Source of the DNA: Verrucomicrobiota bacterium
GTDB taxonomy: Bacteria; Verrucomicrobiota; Verrucomicrobiia; Limisphaerales; UBA9464
Assembly: GCA_947454705.1 (NCBI GenBank)
Contig: CANGKZ010000010.1
Coordinates: 62,001-126,000 of the forward strand
Length of the DNA: 64,000 nucleotides
Reading direction: 5' to 3'
Positions 48,691 through 56,694 of the stretch are shown here, piece by piece. A program made the translations under genes and the position numbers. A model generated the notes under the pieces. The model saw nothing but the letters and a program-made list of their open reading frames with translations, was not told the origin of the DNA and made no database searches. Position 1 is the first letter of the stretch, and each line of letters begins with the position of its first letter.

Positions 48691-49473
48691 TCAGCGCCCA
48701 CCGGAAACCAGCGGCTTCCGCATCCGCACCACCTCGTCCCGAAGCTCCCGCGCCAGCACCTTGCGGTCTCCACCCGCGGCCCGGGCGGTACCAAACGTGA
48801 CACGCGCGTCGAGCCGCTCAATCGACAGCAGGTTCAGGAAGTGCGGAACAAAGGTCATGTCGCGCCAATACGCCACATGATCGGCCACCGTCCCGCGGGA
48901 GGCCGCGTAATCGAGGGCCACCGGAGCGACGTTCCATCCGGCCTCCACCGCGGGAGCCAGCAGCGAGGGACGAAACGGCATCACATCGTCCCCGCCCGAA
49001 CTCGTGCCTTCGAGGAACACCACCACGGGAATGTCGTGGCGCACCACGTCGTCGAACTGCCGGATCACCGAGGCCAGATCCCCCTTTTTCTCGCGCTGGA
49101 GGTAGAGCGTTCCACCGCCGTCGGAGAGTTTTCCCACCACCGGCCAGTTCTTCACCTCGGCCTTGGACACGAACACCACCGGCGTCGCGGCCGCGATGGT
49201 GACGATGTCGAGGTACCCCATGTGATTCGCCCCGTAAATTTGCGCCTTCGGGATGGAGCCTTCCGTCTGCACGTTCCAGTTCATCAGGCGGCAGAGCCGT
49301 TGCGCGTGACGATGCGTCCACTCGGCCCGGCGGCGGTAGTCGCGCAGCGGGCCGGAGGCGAGGGCGGGAGATTCAAAGGCCGCAACGGTTCGCGAAAGAT
49401 CGCGAAGTGCGGTCACGCTGAATCGTGCAAAACGGAGAAGTCGGACCGGAAGCCGGACCGGGTGAAGCGCCAT
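48691..49473 (-). CDS. olsA: 1-acyl-sn-glycerol-3-phosphate acyltransferase family (OlsA/PlsC-like)
   Basis: 260 residues with an amphipathic N-terminus and the PlsC acyltransferase domain: block I NHMGYLD (NHx4D, His and Asp catalytic), block III FLEGTSSGG (EGT), and VAPVALDY. PlsC enzymes acylate lysophosphatidic acid. The gene begins 4 bp after an OlsB-like gene, the same pairing as olsB-olsA in alphaproteobacteria, where OlsA adds the second, ester-linked acyl chain of ornithine lipid. I therefore favour OlsA; a true PlsC remains possible, since the two are hard to tell apart by motif. Confidence 0.75.
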   Translation of the reverse strand: MALHPVRLPVRLLRFARFSVTALRDLSRTVAAFESPALASGPLRDYRRRAEWTHRHAQRLCRLMNWNVQTEGSIPKAQIYGANHMGYLDIVTIAAATPVVFVSKAEVKNWPVVGKLSDGGGTLYLQREKKGDLASVIRQFDDVVRHDIPVVVFLEGTSSGGDDVMPFRPSLLAPAVEAGWNVAPVALDYAASRGTVADHVAYWRDMTFVPHFLNLLSIERLDARVTFGTARAAGGDRKVLARELRDEVVRMRKPLVSGGR

Positions 49474-49477
49474 GCGC

Positions 49478-50308
49478 TTAACCTATCATGCGACGGGCCG
49501 ACGCGGGAAGCGCATCGATATCCAGCCAGGTGAGGAAATCGATGGTCTTGAACTCGCGGTCGATCGCGGGCGGGCCGCAGATCTTGGCTCCGAGCGAAAG
49601 GTAGGCGCGCAGGAGTTTCGGAATCTTCGGAGCCATTGGAGCCAGATGCTCCATGTCGCAGCGGAACGCCGGAAGCGGGAAGGTCCGCAGCGAGGGCTCC
49701 ACGAGATGCTTGCCACTCAACTCAAAGAAGGCGGCGGCACCCTCGGACGGGTCCTGCGAGGTCAGCGAACTGCAGCCGAGAAAATAATGGACCCCATGGG
49801 CCCGGGCGTAATCGGCGATGCCGCGCCAAAGCAGTCCGAGCACTGCGAGATTGCGATGATCCCGGTGAACGCACGCGCGACCGAGTTCGATAATCTGATC
49901 GCGATAGGGTTCGAAGGGCGCGAAATCAAACTCGAGCGCGGAGTAGTAGCCGAGATTCGCCGCTGCGGTGCGACCGGTCTGGAGCCGGTAGGTCCCGACC
50001 ACTTCCCCGGTGCTGCAGCTTTCCACAATCACGTGGTCGCAGATTGGATCAAAACGATCCTCATCCCGCAGCGTGGTGTAGGAGCTCTCCAATCCCTCGT
50101 TCAATTCGAGGTTGAAGACGAAGAAGCGGAGGGCCTGCGCGGCCTTGATGTCGGCATCGGCACGCGAGATGCGAACCCGGTAGGGCGATTCCAAGCCCAA
50201 ACGCCCCAGGACCCGCGAACCCAATCCGGGCGCGGCTGAGGGAATCTGGGAGTCAAGGCCCGGACCAAGCATGAGAGCGTTCATAGCTGGCGAAAGCATG
50301 ACGTGCAA
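49478..50308 (-). CDS. olsB: OlsB-like N-acyltransferase (GNAT, hemolysin/ornithine-lipid type)
   Basis: 276 residues. After about 40 variable residues comes a GNAT-type domain: RVRISRADADIKAAQALRFFVFNLE, then CDHVIVESCSTGEVVGTYRL, the YYSALEFDF segment, ELGRACVHRDHRN and LLWRGIADYARAHGVHYFLGCSSL. These are hallmarks of the OlsB/hemolysin acetyltransferase family (R-F-x-VF, CDH, E-x-GR-x-CV). OlsB transfers a 3-hydroxyacyl chain to the alpha-amino group of ornithine. Several in-frame ATGs (codons 1, 4, 9, 13) compete; 50284 is a good alternative. It is 114 bp downstream of phoU, co-directional. Confidence 0.8.
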   Translation of the reverse strand: MHVMLSPAMNALMLGPGLDSQIPSAAPGLGSRVLGRLGLESPYRVRISRADADIKAAQALRFFVFNLELNEGLESSYTTLRDEDRFDPICDHVIVESCSTGEVVGTYRLQTGRTAAANLGYYSALEFDFAPFEPYRDQIIELGRACVHRDHRNLAVLGLLWRGIADYARAHGVHYFLGCSSLTSQDPSEGAAAFFELSGKHLVEPSLRTFPLPAFRCDMEHLAPMAPKIPKLLRAYLSLGAKICGPPAIDREFKTIDFLTWLDIDALPASARRMIG

Positions 50309-50422
50309 GTCCGGGGGAGCCCCTCAAAAACGAGGAAACAATGGCAAAAGTCCGGCAACTGCCAGGTCACAATCCGTTCACAACCGGATCGACCGGTATC
50401 GCCGCATGATCCGCCAGGCCGC

Positions 50423-51088
50423 TCAGCGGGTAAGTTCAGACGGGGCGGTGTGACGAATGTCCTTCGCCTCGTAGAGATAAACCGCCTCTTCGGCGATGTT
50501 CTTGGCGTGGTCGGCAATGCGTTCGATCGCCTTGCTGATGGTCATCAGGTTGAGGCACCGGGTGATGGTGGTCGGCTTCTCAATCATGAAGCTCGCCAGC
50601 TCGCGGTAGAGCTGCTTGTTGAGGGCATCCACACCCTTGTCGCGAGGGATCACCTGTCGCGCCCGCTCGGTGTCGCCCGAGGTGAAGGCTCCGAGCGCAT
50701 CGCGAAGCATGTCGGTCGCCATCTGGGCCATGCGGGGGATGTCCACGTAGGGCTTGAGCTGGGGTTCCGCGTTCAACTCCACGGCGCGACGCGCGATCGT
50801 GGTGGCTTCATCACCGATGCGCTCCAGGTCGCGCGCGATCTTGCTGGCGCAGATGATCAACCGGAGCTGACTCGCGAGCGGGGCCTTGGCCAGGAGGCGG
50901 ATGGCGTCCTCGTCCACCTCGATCTCAAGGCGATCCACCGCGTCGTCGTCCTCCTGCACCAGGCGGGCCAGATCATCGTCCCGCTCCACCAGCGCGCGGA
51001 TGGCGCGGGTGACGGCGGATTCGGACCGGCTCGCCATGCCCAGAAGCTTGTCTTTGAGGGCGGAGATTTCTTCGTCGAAGTGGCTCAT
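50423..51088 (-). CDS. phoU: Phosphate-specific transport system accessory protein PhoU
   Basis: 221 residues forming two PhoU three-helix repeats. Metal-cluster motifs are SKIARDLERIGDEATTIAR (about 83-101) in the first repeat and SKAIERIADHAKNIAEEAVYL (about 186-206) in the second, with Ala for the usual Gly in the second. PhoU connects the Pst transporter to the PhoR sensor and limits Pho signalling when phosphate is plentiful. It follows pstB by 51 bp. Confidence 0.96.
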   Translation of the reverse strand: MSHFDEEISALKDKLLGMASRSESAVTRAIRALVERDDDLARLVQEDDDAVDRLEIEVDEDAIRLLAKAPLASQLRLIICASKIARDLERIGDEATTIARRAVELNAEPQLKPYVDIPRMAQMATDMLRDALGAFTSGDTERARQVIPRDKGVDALNKQLYRELASFMIEKPTTITRCLNLMTISKAIERIADHAKNIAEEAVYLYEAKDIRHTAPSELTR

Positions 51089-51139: not shown

Positions 51140-51937
51140 TCAACCGAACCGGCCGGTGACGTAGTCTTCGGTGCGCTTGCAGGACGGATTGGTGAAAATC
51201 TTCGAGGTCTTGTCAAACTCCACCAACTCGCCGAGGTAGAAGAACGCGGTCTGGTCCGAGATGCGCGTTGCCTGCTGCATGTTGTGGGTGACGATGACGA
51301 TGGTGAAATCCTTCTTCAGGTCGAGGATCAGGTCCTCCACGCGCGAAGTCGCGATCGGGTCCAAGGCGCTGGCCGGCTCATCCATGAGCAGGATCTCGGG
51401 CTTGATGGCGATCGCGCGGGCGATGCAAAGCCGCTGCTGCTGACCGCCGGAAAGTCCCAGCGCGCTGGTGTGCAAACGGTCCTTCACTTCTTCCCAAAGC
51501 GCCGCACCACGAAGCGACTGCTCCACCACTGCATCCACTTCGGATCGAGCCTTCACCCCGTGCAGGCGCAGGCCGTAGGCGATGTTTTCGTAAATCGATT
51601 TCGGGAACGGATTCGACTTTTGAAACACCATCCCCACGCGCTTGCGGAGCTCGATGACATCCACATCGGGCGCGTAGATGTCCTCGCCGCCGATGCGGCA
51701 TTCGCCAGTGATGCGAACACCGTCGATCAAATCGTTCATCCGGTTGAAGCAGCGGAGAAAGGTCGATTTCCCACAGCCGGACGGTCCGATGAACGCCGTG
51801 ACCACGCGGGGTTGGAGCTGGATGTTGATCCCCTTCAGCGCTCGGGTGGAGCCGTAGTAGAGATCGAGATTGCGCGCCTCGATGAGAGGAGCCGGAGCCT
51901 GCGCGGGCGCAGCGGGATTGACGTTGGGGGCAACCAT
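51140..51937 (-). CDS. pstB: Phosphate ABC transporter ATP-binding protein
   Basis: 265 residues. The N-terminus [20 protein letters not shown], Walker [21 protein letters not shown], signature [16 protein letters not shown], Walker [17 protein letters not shown] and VTHNMQQA are all diagnostic of PstB; the [10 protein letters not shown] stretch is specific to this subfamily. It hydrolyses ATP for phosphate import through PstC/PstA. It is 34 bp downstream of pstA. Confidence 0.97.
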
Positions 51938-51971: not shown

Positions 51972-52940
51972 TCAGTGACCGGCGCGCATCGCCTTGCGCA
52001 TGCGGGCGCGGGCGACGATGCCCACGGCGTTGAGGGAAAAGGTCAGCAACAGCAGCACCAGCACCGTCGCGTAGAGAATGGGACGTGTCTTTTCAATGTT
52101 GTCCGACTGCGTGCTGAGCACGAAGGCGTGGTAGCCGAGATCCATGAATTGATCGGTCAGGTGGGTCGGCAGGTCCGCCATGTAATACGCGGCCCCAGTG
52201 AACAAAATCGGTGCCACTTCCCCGGCCGCACGGCTGATCGCCAAAATACCACCGGTGAGAATTCCCGGCAGCGCGTTGGGCAGCACGATTTTGATAATCG
52301 TTTCCAACTTGGTCGCGCCGAGTGCGAGGCTGGCTTCGCGAAGTCCCGGGGTGATCGCTTTCAACGATTCTTCGGTGGCCACGATCACCACGGGCAGGGT
52401 CATGATCGACAGCGTGAGCGATGCCCACACCAGCGCGGGCTGGCCGTAGTGCGGCCCCACCTGATGGGTGATCGAATCCAGATTCTTCCCGATGAAATTG
52501 ATGAAGAATCCCAAGCCGAAAAGTCCGAACACAATCGACGGCACGCCCGCCAGATTGGCAATCGCTGCACGGATCACCCGGGTGTAGCGCGATCCCGACG
52601 CCGCGTACTCGGTGAGGTACACCGCCGTGATCACGCCCACGGGGATGACAAAAACCGTCATCACAAACACGCGAATGGTGGTGCCCACGATCATCGACAA
52701 CACCGCCGCGGATTCGGGCTCAAAAAAATCCTTCCGCGGAATCGTGGAAACAAACCGCCACGACAACGCCGGGAGACCGTGGATCGCGATGTCGGTCAGA
52801 ATCGCGATCAGGAACAGGATGATGAAGCCCGTGGCGGATGCTGTGATGGCGGTGCCAATGCTGGCCCCCCAATCAATGCGTCGGCCGCGGAGGCTGCGCC
52901 GTTCAGGAGCCGGCGTCTGGTTGGTATTTGAAGGATTCAT
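51972..52940 (-). CDS. pstA: Phosphate ABC transporter permease PstA
   Basis: 322 residues, six transmembrane helices, and the EAA loop [26 protein letters not shown] (about 190-215) that docks Pst[16 protein letters not shown] is the usual PstA signature. The N-terminal tail of about 30 residues is polar. The start codon overlaps the pstC stop (TGATG, one shared base), which implies coupled translation. Confidence 0.95.
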
Positions 52941-54130
52941 CAGCGTCCCTCCCGTCCGCGACGCAGGCGGAACATCACTTGTTCGGCAACGAAGTTGGTC
53001 ACAAAGGTCACGAGGAACAGAAGGGTTCCGAGCAAAAACAAAATCCGGTAGTGCGGCCCGCCGGACACCGCCTCGGCCATCTCGGCGGCGATCGTCGCGG
53101 TGAGGCTGCGGGTGGAATCAAAGATGTTCCACGAAACCACGCTGGCGTTTCCGCTGGCGATCAGCACCACCATGGTTTCCCCGATGCAGCGACCAAACCC
53201 GAGGACAATCGCCGCAAACACACCGGGCGCGGCGGCCGGCAGAACGATCTGCCATGCGGTCTGCCACTTGGAGGCACCCAGCGCGAGTGCGGCCTGCACG
53301 TAGGCGCGGGGGACGCTCGTGAGCGCATCTTCGGCGATCGAGAAAATCAGGGGAATGCTGGTCAGCCCCAGCGCGATACCTGCGACAAACGCGTTCAATC
53401 GGAACCGGTATCCGAACAGCGATTGAAGCACTCCCGCCAGCACGAGGAAGGCGAAGGCTCCCATCACCACCGAAGGAATGCCGGAGAGAAACTCAACGCC
53501 GGGTTTGATCCATTCCTTGATCGAAGGCGGCGCCAGTTGCGACACGTAGATCGCGGCCCCAAGGGCCAAAGGCACCGCAAAGGCGAGACCGACCAAGGTG
53601 GTCTTGAGACTGCCGATGAAGAGCGGGATCAGATTGTATTTCGCGATCGTTCCCACCGGCTGCCAGATGTACTCGGGCTTCGAGTAGCCGGTCCACTGAT
53701 GCGGCCGGACCAGGTACTTCCATTCGGTGCCGTTGGCATGCGCATCGGGATCGTTGCGGAAGCGTTCCGGCACTTCCTTGGCGGCTTCCTCGCGGATTTC
53801 CATCAACGTCTTGAGGGTTTCCTCGTCCTTGGAGGCGAGCTCCGAGGGGGTCATGCCAAGGTACTTTGCCAATCGATCCTTGGGCACCTTGGCGAGGTCG
53901 GCCGACGGAATCACCTCCTGCACCAACGCGCTGTTGGTCTGCCCCAGGAACACCGGAAGCGCCTCGCGTCCGATGAACAAAAAGATCAGGAACACCATGG
54001 CGATCGCGAGAAAGCTGATCCCAAAGATCAACCGCTCGGCGATCCATTCCAGGGGACGGGCCCGGTGACCGCGATGGATGCCAATCCAGGTCTGCGGCCG
54101 ACGGGAGGAATCTGGGGTATTCTGAGGCAC
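52940..54130 (-). CDS. pstC: Phosphate ABC transporter permease PstC with an extra periplasmic insert
   Basis: About 396 residues if it starts at the GTG at 54130 (PQNTPDSSRRPQTW); the ATG at 54250 lies inside a long intergenic hairpin and I consider it less likely. The first helix (about 27-50) is followed by about 70-85 residues not found in E. coli PstC (319 aa), with a charged helix DRLAKYLGMTPSELASKDEETLK, then the usual five helices. The EAA loop is AEDALTSVPRAYVQAALALGASKWQT, and GIPSVVMGAFAFLVLA is the PstC signature. It forms the inner-membrane channel with PstA. Confidence 0.9.
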   Translation of the reverse strand: MPQNTPDSSRRPQTWIGIHRGHRARPLEWIAERLIFGISFLAIAMVFLIFLFIGREALPVFLGQTNSALVQEVIPSADLAKVPKDRLAKYLGMTPSELASKDEETLKTLMEIREEAAKEVPERFRNDPDAHANGTEWKYLVRPHQWTGYSKPEYIWQPVGTIAKYNLIPLFIGSLKTTLVGLAFAVPLALGAAIYVSQLAPPSIKEWIKPGVEFLSGIPSVVMGAFAFLVLAGVLQSLFGYRFRLNAFVAGIALGLTSIPLIFSIAEDALTSVPRAYVQAALALGASKWQTAWQIVLPAAAPGVFAAIVLGFGRCIGETMVVLIASGNASVVSWNIFDSTRSLTATIAAEMAEAVSGGPHYRILFLLGTLLFLVTFVTNFVAEQVMFRLRRGREGR

Positions 54131-54234
54131 GGGAAACAAAGGATGACGATCTGCGCTGCTAGAATGCGGGTTCGATCCGCTGAAGCCCAATGACGATTGG
54201 GTGAACTGATTGGATCGGATTCTCCCCTCAACAA

Positions 54235-54309: not shown

Positions 54310-55155
54310 TTAGTTCGAACGCAGGTTCTTCTGGAGCGGATAATATCCAACATCCTTCACCAGCTTCTGACCATCCTCGCCGCGGATCCACTTGAGGTAG
54401 GCCGCGACTTCGCCCTTATCGAGGGCGGGGTTCACATACACATACAGGTAGCGCCAGATCGGATACTTGCCGGAGAGAACATTCTCCTCGGAGGGCTCGA
54501 TTCCCGCTTCGCCCTTGGCGGTGCTGACCTTGAGGTGCTTGGCACCGGCCCCGTAGGCGGCACCGCCGTAGCCGATGCCGTTCTTGTCCTTCGAGACGGC
54601 CTGCAGCACCGCAGCGGTGCCCGGCATGGTCTGCGCGCCGGAGGCAAAATCTTTGCCCTTGAGCACGTGTTCCTTGAAGAACTCGTAGGTCCCGGAGCTG
54701 TTCTCGCGGCTATACACGGTGATCGGAGCGTCGTCACCGCCGACTTGCTTCCAGTTCTTGATGGCACCGGTGAAGATGCCTTCGAGCTCTTCAAGGCTCA
54801 GGCTGGTCACCTTGGAGTTGGATTCGCTCACGTACACGCTGAGACCATCGAGCGCGACCTTGTACTCGGTGGGGCGCTTGCCGAAGACCTTCACGCACTG
54901 CTCGATTTCCTTCGCCTTAATCTTGCGGGAGGCGTTGCACAGGTCGGTGGTCTGGTTCTGGAGCGCGGCAAAGCCGGTGCCGGTGCCGCCACCGGTGACC
55001 TGGATCTTTTGTCCGGGATGAGCGGACATGTAGACCTCGGCCCATTTTTGGGCGAGGACGACGAGGGTGTCGGAACCCTTGACGCTGATGGTGCCAGCGA
55101 TGGCATTGGCCGCAGTCAGCAAGGTCGCGGCAAGGAGTGCGAGTTTCGATTTCAT
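54310..55155 (-). CDS. pstS: Phosphate-binding protein PstS
   Basis: 281 residues with a signal peptide (MKSKLALLAATLLTAANAIA). The PBP-like fold shows the phosphate-site segments VKGSDTLVVLAQKWAE, GGGTGTGFAALQN, CNASRKIK and YSRENSSGTYEFF, which are conserved in PstS. It captures phosphate in the periplasm for PstCAB. The length is shorter than E. coli PstS (346) but normal for the PstS family of Verrucomicrobia and related phyla. It starts 67 bp after the porin stop. Confidence 0.95.
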   Translation of the reverse strand: MKSKLALLAATLLTAANAIAGTISVKGSDTLVVLAQKWAEVYMSAHPGQKIQVTGGGTGTGFAALQNQTTDLCNASRKIKAKEIEQCVKVFGKRPTEYKVALDGLSVYVSESNSKVTSLSLEELEGIFTGAIKNWKQVGGDDAPITVYSRENSSGTYEFFKEHVLKGKDFASGAQTMPGTAAVLQAVSKDKNGIGYGGAAYGAGAKHLKVSTAKGEAGIEPSEENVLSGKYPIWRYLYVYVNPALDKGEVAAYLKWIRGEDGQKLVKDVGYYPLQKNLRSN

Positions 55156-55222: not shown

Positions 55223-56605
55223 TCAGAATTTCCAGCTCAGATCCGCCATAAAGTGACCGGCGGCGCTGGTGCTGCCCGCCGGGTTTGGCAGGACGAGGGT
55301 GTTGAGGTAGTAGGTGAACACGAAGGTGAGGGAGTCGGTGATCGAGTACCGCATCGTCACGAGGTGTCCCTTCACGTTTGTGCCGCCGCGATAGCCAAAG
55401 CCGCCGACGGCATTGGCAAATCCGGAACCGCCAAGCGCCTTCTGGTAAAACGCGCCGTTGTCGTCATCCACCACTTCCTCATACCAGGCATCGGCACCGA
55501 GAACTTGATACCGGTAGCTGATCTCCCACTTCCCCTTCTCGCCAGACTTGCCGAAGGTGACACCGGCGTTGTAGCCGACGTTCTGGGTCGGGGCGCCGGG
55601 GTTGTTCATGTACTCGCCGCCGAGCTTGATCGGGAAGGCACCATCGTACATCGGGAAGCTGTCGAGCTTGTACACCACGGCACCGCTCACCACGACCGGG
55701 TTGTAGTTGTAAATCAACTGGCCGGCACCATTGCGGGTGTTGCCGTCGTTCACGTTCGGCAACGTCGCTGCGTTGTCCAGGTTGTCCTTGGATCCGAGCG
55801 CGAACACGCCCACGCCCACGGTGGATTCAAGTTTCTTGCTCCACTTGGATTCCCACAGCATCTGACCGCCGAACAGGCTGGGATCATGGCTCGGGGAAAC
55901 CACTCCGGGCAGCGAGATCTGGTTGAGCTCGTTGAGCGCGTAGTAGGCGCCGATGGCTCGAATCGACTGGGTGTCGTTGATGGAGTAGGCAATTTGCGCC
56001 GCAGCGCCTTCCGGTTGGTAGTCGGGATCGAAGACCATCGGGGACACCAGGAACTGGTTGTCCATTTTTCCGATAACCGTGGACGCGTTCCACGTGCCGT
56101 TATGGATCGGATTCCACTTCGCGTAGGCAGCATCAAAGTAGACTGCCTTGCGGGTCGCGCCGTTCTGGAAGGTGGAGTTTGCGGAGATCGGATTGCCACC
56201 TAGACCGTTCGACACATCGGCCGAGGTCAGGCGGACTCCAACTTCAAAATCCTCGGCCAGCGTGGCCGTGATGCCAACGCGGGCGCGGTAGCGGAAACGG
56301 GTTCGGCTGGTAAACAGCGAATCATCAGCGCTGAAGTGCTCCACACGGCCGCGAAAATCTCCGTTGATCTTCAGGGCTGTGACCCATTCGGGCATTCCGC
56401 TCTTGGCGGAATAGGCCTTGGAGAATTCCTTGTCCGATTCTTCTCGGAGCTGGTTGGCCTCGTTGACGTTTAGGATTCCCTTCTCGACGAGCTTGTCGAT
56501 GAGGGCATCGGCGGATTGCGCGTGAAGACTGGTGCCGAGAGCAGCGGATCCAGCGATCGCCAGCGCGGCAGCGATCTTCAATCGGGTTGTGTTGCGTGGT
56601 GCCAT
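55223..56605 (-). CDS. Putative outer-membrane porin, first gene of the pst cluster
   Basis: 460 residues: a signal peptide (IAAALAIAGSAALGTSLHAQ), a short coiled-coil or SLH-like segment (ADALIDKLVEKGILNVNEANQLREE, about 32-56), then alternating beta strands to the end and a terminal aromatic (MADLSWKF), as for a trimeric beta-barrel. It resembles the putative porin family (Porin_5-like) rather than OprP by visible motifs. Being first in the pst locus and behind the candidate Pho box, it is likely to let phosphate cross the outer membrane (inference). Confidence 0.85.
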   Translation of the reverse strand: MAPRNTTRLKIAAALAIAGSAALGTSLHAQSADALIDKLVEKGILNVNEANQLREESDKEFSKAYSAKSGMPEWVTALKINGDFRGRVEHFSADDSLFTSRTRFRYRARVGITATLAEDFEVGVRLTSADVSNGLGGNPISANSTFQNGATRKAVYFDAAYAKWNPIHNGTWNASTVIGKMDNQFLVSPMVFDPDYQPEGAAAQIAYSINDTQSIRAIGAYYALNELNQISLPGVVSPSHDPSLFGGQMLWESKWSKKLESTVGVGVFALGSKDNLDNAATLPNVNDGNTRNGAGQLIYNYNPVVVSGAVVYKLDSFPMYDGAFPIKLGGEYMNNPGAPTQNVGYNAGVTFGKSGEKGKWEISYRYQVLGADAWYEEVVDDDNGAFYQKALGGSGFANAVGGFGYRGGTNVKGHLVTMRYSITDSLTFVFTYYLNTLVLPNPAGSTSAAGHFMADLSWKF

Positions 56606-56650
56606 AGGTGTGTTGCGTCGTGCACGCGCAAACTCCGGGGCACCGGTTAC

Positions 56651-56694
56651 AGAATAAGGACTGAAATGTTACGATTGTGTGAACGAAGTTTTAC
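56651..56694 (-). promoter_or_regulatory. Candidate Pho box and -10 element upstream of the porin-pst operon
   Basis: On the minus strand three 11-bp units lie in tandem: GTAAAACTTCG, TTCACACAATC, GTAACATTTCA (56694-56662). Positions 2, 4 and 6 are invariant. They are followed after 5 bp by TATTCT (56656-56651), a plausible -10. The -35 position falls inside the repeats and has no good -35 hexamer. This is the layout of PhoB-activated promoters, where direct repeats of 11-bp period replace the -35. The porin ATG is 45 bp further on. Confidence 0.55.

Follow-up and report, generated by a model that had tools for sequence, protein, structure and literature searches.

A conserved predicted PhoB-binding array of the E. 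coli type at the head of a porin-pstSCAB-phoU gene cluster in Verrucomicrobiota

OprP and OprO of Pseudomonas are outer-membrane phosphate porins under PhoB control. A Pho box is defined as two 11-nt direct repeats (reviewed in PMC4415409), and the E. coli consensus is CTGTCAT-A(AT)A(TA)-CTGT(CA)A(CT), within which the pentamer GTAAC falls (PMC3465305). The E. coli pstS promoter, which we checked in E. coli records, reads GTCAT-N6-GTCAT-N6-TACAT-N6-GTCAC-N10-TATTTT. The SphR boxes of cyanobacteria are likewise tandem repeats with an 11-bp period (8 bp plus 3-bp linkers) and lie upstream of pst operons (PMC1906773). Within the PVC superphylum, PhoB sites have been mapped by ChIP-seq in Waddlia chondrophila (Chlamydiota); the 21-bp consensus, (T/A)NTNAA(G/A)AAANTGN(T/A)AAATTT, is A/T-rich, many of the targets are hypothetical, and the authors raised the question of which genes PhoB controls in other PVC bacteria (PMC4989314). 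Waddlia was the sole PVC bacterium with a mapped PhoB in the literature that we searched, and no Pho box of Verrucomicrobiota was found in the searchable literature.

The window, by which we mean the whole 64,000-nt stretch of a Verrucomicrobiota contig analysed here, contains a porin gene followed by pstSCAB and phoU (Table 1). An earlier note on this DNA had described a three-unit repeat resembling a Pho box upstream of the porin, GTAAAACTTCG/TTCACACAATC/GTAACATTTCA, together with TATTCT as the -10 element; we found the repeats at 56694-56662 on the minus strand and TATTCT at 56656-56651. Porin orthologs were present in 26 of 39 related genomes, and an ungapped alignment of their upstream regions gave the layout GTnAC-N6-GTnAC-N6-GnCnT-N6-GTnAC-N10-nAnnnT. 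The 11-nt direct repeats, of which a Pho box requires at least two, follow one another at spacings of 11, 11, and 11 bp, and these were kept in 24 orthologous promoters and in the 58 held-out promoters described below. The strong units have the consensus GT(A/C)AC, which agrees with the E. coli unit core CTGT(C/A)A(C/T); in the window they read TTCAC (one base off), GTAAC, and GTAAC. The degenerate unit 3 retains its own letters, namely G in 13, C in 14, and T in 14 of the 16 promoters outside the genus, and in 30 sites obtained with a pattern that leaves unit 3 free, 26 had the G and 27 the C.

The second and third repeats of the earlier note are real units of this array (units 1 and 2), whereas its count and register were off, the strong unit 4 and the degenerate unit 3 having been overlooked. 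The 5-mer of its outer unit, the GTAAAAC element in GTAAAACTTCG, agreed with GTnAC at a mean of 1.25 of 4 positions in the 24 orthologous promoters, far below units 1, 2, and 4 (Table 1); GTAAAACTTCG was dropped as an array unit and probably represents a chance resemblance.

Table 1. Features of the porin-pst locus and its predicted promoter (window coordinates)
Feature	Coordinates	Strand	Remarks
Porin (Pfam Porin_5)	55223..56605	-	PF16930, E 1.8e-25; first gene of the inferred operon
pstS	54310..55155	-	NCBIfam TIGR02136
pstC, start codon uncertain	52940..54190	-	TIGR02138; synteny
pstA	51972..52940	-	TIGR00974
pstB	51140..51937	-	TIGR00972
phoU	50423..51088	-	TIGR02135
Predicted Pho-box unit 1, TTCAC (consensus GTnAC)	56679..56683	-	3.75 of 4 positions kept in 24 orthologous promoters
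Predicted Pho-box unit 2, GTAAC	56668..56672	-	4 of 4 positions in all 24 orthologous promoters
Degenerate unit 3, GTCCT, kept as GnCnT	56657..56661	-	within the -38 to -34 region
Predicted Pho-box unit 4, GTAAC	56646..56650	-	22 bp after unit 2; 3.67 of 4 positions in 24 promoters
Inferred -10 hexamer GAGTTT	56630..56635	-	10 bp after unit 4
Outer unit of the earlier note, GTAAAACTTCG	56684..56694	-	unconserved
TATTCT, -10 of the earlier note	56651..56656	-	unsupported by conservation

A matrix of the array built from 16 genomes outside the genus gave the window site a score of 37.5 bits, which covers the units alone, versus 6.8 bits for the next best site in the 64 kb and a maximum of 16.7 bits in 20 random 64-kb sequences. 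In the genus, the pattern KTMAC-N6-KTMAC-N17-KTMAC matched exactly once per genome in all eight genomes, always upstream of the porin ortholog; a spacing-shifted control pattern gave two scattered, unrelated matches. The held-out set comprised eighty named porin loci, mostly from Verrucomicrobiota records, and at the threshold of 15 bits the array was carried by 58 of 64 new distinct porin promoters versus 3 of 158 control stretches. By the earlier note's own criterion, its reading would have failed if the repeats were not conserved upstream of orthologous porin-pst loci, but the array is conserved there; the reading of the site as a Pho box is supported. These results indicate a genuine, deeply conserved array that is predicted to bind PhoB and is built like the E. 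coli site.

We searched 245 genomes of the order with a strict pattern that includes the -10 and obtained about 125 matches in 96 genomes; the reversed pattern, used as the control, gave one. The window's own site was absent from these matches because its unit 1 is TTCAC. Thirty strict-pattern sites were read in detail: 23 lay at this porin, two upstream of pstS, one at another porin-like gene, one at a GlpT-like transporter, two at a single divergent locus, and one without a clear gene (the GlpT-like and porin-like names were assigned by reading the sequence and not by profile search). The array is thus located upstream of phosphate-acquisition genes, both in the window and among the porin-pst, pstS, and GlpT-like genes found by the pattern search. 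At one locus, two full Pho-type arrays face apart with about 100 bp between them and divergent genes on either side, one of which encodes a protein with a type IV pilin-like N-terminus. Three genomes contain three full arrays each, and the size of the Pho regulon therefore varies within the order.

The order porin, pstS, pstC, pstA, pstB, phoU on one strand was observed at most loci where the sequence extended far enough to show it, pstS came next after the porin on the same strand at 67 of 76 named loci, and phoB and/or phoR directly followed phoU at five loci. Our matrix scan found no second box in the 67-bp gap between porin and pstS, and at two loci with no match to this porin in the stretch examined the box stands directly before pstS. 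Since the gap holds no second box, and since the box precedes pstS where the porin is unmatched, the box appears to mark the head of the operon. These observations support the proposal of the earlier note that the porin is an operon member, and joint activation of the porin with the genes for phosphate uptake is very probable in these Verrucomicrobiota. Downstream of phoU on the same strand, at 48691-50308 (-) of the window and also in three relatives, we found a pair of acyltransferase genes (PF13444, OlsB-like, and PF01553, OlsA-like), which look like genes for ornithine-lipid synthesis; genes for phosphate-free lipids in this position, behind a Pho operon, would suggest membrane remodelling under phosphate limitation. 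A further candidate Pho box in the phoU-olsB gap (a weak match at 50387, 6.0 bits) was dropped, being unconserved in the same three relatives.

The genome of the window encodes a PhoB-type response regulator (locus L048, 3721-4398) followed by a PhoR-type kinase. The regulator shares 46% identity with E. coli PhoB; R193, T194, H198, R200, R201, R203, T217, and R219, which we take to touch the DNA in the PhoB-DNA structure, are the same in both proteins. Its score of 255.7 bits is below the equivalog cut-off of the PhoB family TIGR02154 (296.2 bits), which is still its best-scoring NCBIfam family. The phoB promoter (L048, 4462, minus strand) reads GTCAC-N6-GTAAC-N6-GnCAT, followed by TAGCnT, and by eye 24 of the 25 loci with a stand-alone phoB have the first two units; where phoB is without a box of its own, it sits directly after phoU in the pst cluster. 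In this promoter and its orthologs the second unit is separated from the -10 by 15 bp instead of 10 bp, and TTGTAA is placed as a possible -35, so that self-control of phoB could be of either sign. Of the phosphate genes for which the earlier note had called for a motif scan, phoB carries the box, whereas the homologs of phoD and alkaline phosphatase showed no box within 200 bp upstream of their called starts, which makes the Pho regulon look small. Related arrays were observed at two further kinds of genes. Upstream of CotH-kinase genes in five genus genomes there is a triple array, GTAAC-N6-GTAAC-N6-GTCA(C/T), with diverged spacers and, in the genome of the window, GTCAA as the third unit; these arrays almost abut the start codon, a position that would suit repression. 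DUF4956 membrane-protein genes in four genus genomes have a conserved TTTGACGTAACA...CCGTAACACAACTGTC block 150-250 bp upstream, and in the genome of the window the DUF4956 gene is followed by an HlyD-like gene.

Taken together, these data make it very likely that a double Pho box renders the porin-pstSCAB-phoU promoter PhoB-dependent. At low phosphate, phosphorylated PhoB would bind the 11-bp array head-to-tail, strongly at units 1, 2, and 4 and perhaps at unit 3. The protomer on unit 4, 10 bp before the weak -10 GAGTTT, would recruit sigma-70 RNA polymerase and stand in for a -35. Transcription would then start near 56623, approximately 18 nt ahead of the porin ATG, and we infer that it reads through from the porin across pstS, pstC, pstA, pstB, and phoU as a single transcript.

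The main alternative within a Pho-box reading is the box as it was first drawn, with three units counted from 56694, TATTCT as the -10, and a start near 56644. TATTCT is closer to TATAAT than is GAGTTT, a poor -10 whose initial G counts against our preferred assignment, and it is kept or nearly so in the closest genomes (TATTCT, TATTCT, GATTCT). Among the 58 held-out promoters, however, nAnnnT was never found at the TATTCT position, whereas ten bases past unit 4 it was found in 56 (A in 56, the final T in all 58); the -10 columns were left out of the held-out scan, which used the units only, and their conservation is therefore an independent test. The -35 thus appears to be replaced at a fixed distance from the -10, as at the E. 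coli pstS promoter. If TATTCT were the -10, moreover, the conserved unit 4 just downstream would fall in the melted region, and the outermost of the three units is unconserved. We consider the box as first drawn very unlikely, and GAGTTT is very probably the true -10. The hexamer reads GAGTTT, GAGCGT, or CAGCGT in the eight genus promoters, so that its weak start is characteristic of the genus. Of the 58 held-out promoters, 40 begin the predicted -10 with C, a shared departure from TATAAT.

Another OmpR/PhoB-family regulator, for example one of WalR- or RegX3-like specificity, might bind the array and control porin-pst. Head-to-tail arrays of this type are common across the OmpR family, and similar GTAAC-N6-GTAAC arrays stand upstream of the CotH and DUF4956 genes, which have no obvious phosphate role. 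The box is, however, also found at phoB, pstS, and the GlpT-like gene, several families have phoB-phoR within the porin-pst cluster itself, and the DNA-contact residues are those of E. coli PhoB; we consider control by a different regulator very unlikely as well. That the repeats arose by chance within an A+T-richer intergenic stretch is a reading that we give practically no weight. It draws on the two-unit pattern, which is not enriched in the genome of the window (11 matches versus 14 for the control, though phoB is among the matches) and was dropped as a regulon finder there; against it stand the fixed spacing in the independent held-out promoters and the single match in each genus genome.

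Within the preferred PhoB-dependent promoter, unit 3 could be a composite element and not a decayed PhoB half-site, with CGnCnT read by sigma-70 region 4 held in place by the flanking PhoB protomers. We regard this as a tentative and rather unlikely proposal; the letters CGnCnT often run on into CTTTGT, around -38 to -30. If it were true, "GTnAC pair, sigma element, GTnAC, 10 bp, (C/T/G)AnnnT" would be a fixed design across these Verrucomicrobiota, and the usual absence of the first T from the -10 would make the promoter class strictly PhoB-dependent.

The array model is ready for use in listing phosphate-limited genes in uncultured Verrucomicrobiota genomes. The conserved box also ties a Porin_5 outer-membrane porin to phosphate uptake, which provides a likely substrate context for a poorly characterised family.

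In comparison with known systems, the closest counterpart is the E. coli pstS promoter. The earlier note had supposed that the units might represent a divergent verrucomicrobial version of the box, but this was mostly wrong: the units GT(C/A)AC lie within the E. coli consensus, the verrucomicrobial matrix gives E. coli pstS 26.2 bits (control maximum, 17.8 bits), and the contact residues of PhoB are unchanged. A divergent consensus was accordingly dropped, and the array in the window is, as judged from its letters, a classical Pho box. Both promoters have the 11/11/11/10 geometry, a weak third position, and a -10 without a -35 consensus, and both head a phosphate uptake operon. They differ in that the E. 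coli box heads pstS itself, with no porin, in their units (GTCAT/GTCAC versus verrucomicrobial GTAAC/GTCAC; TACAT versus GnCnT at the third position), and in the better -10 of E. coli, TATTTT.

The phosphate porins OprP and OprO of Pseudomonas are also outer-membrane porins under PhoB, as is predicted for the porin in the window, but their genes lie away from pst and they are members of a different porin family, whereas the first gene of the predicted pst operon in the window encodes a Porin_5 protein. The cyanobacterial SphR boxes share the 11-bp tandem repeats at pst operons and a PhoB-family regulator; their consensus, however, is CTTAACCT, and sphR is mostly not self-regulated, whereas verrucomicrobial phoB carries a box. 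Waddlia belongs to the same superphylum and has a PhoB ortholog, but its motif is A/T-rich, in contrast to the classical GTnAC repeat on the phosphate genes of Verrucomicrobiota. As far as their sequences can be read, these Verrucomicrobiota have kept the PhoB code in its classical form, along with the protein contacts and the promoter geometry seen in Proteobacteria.
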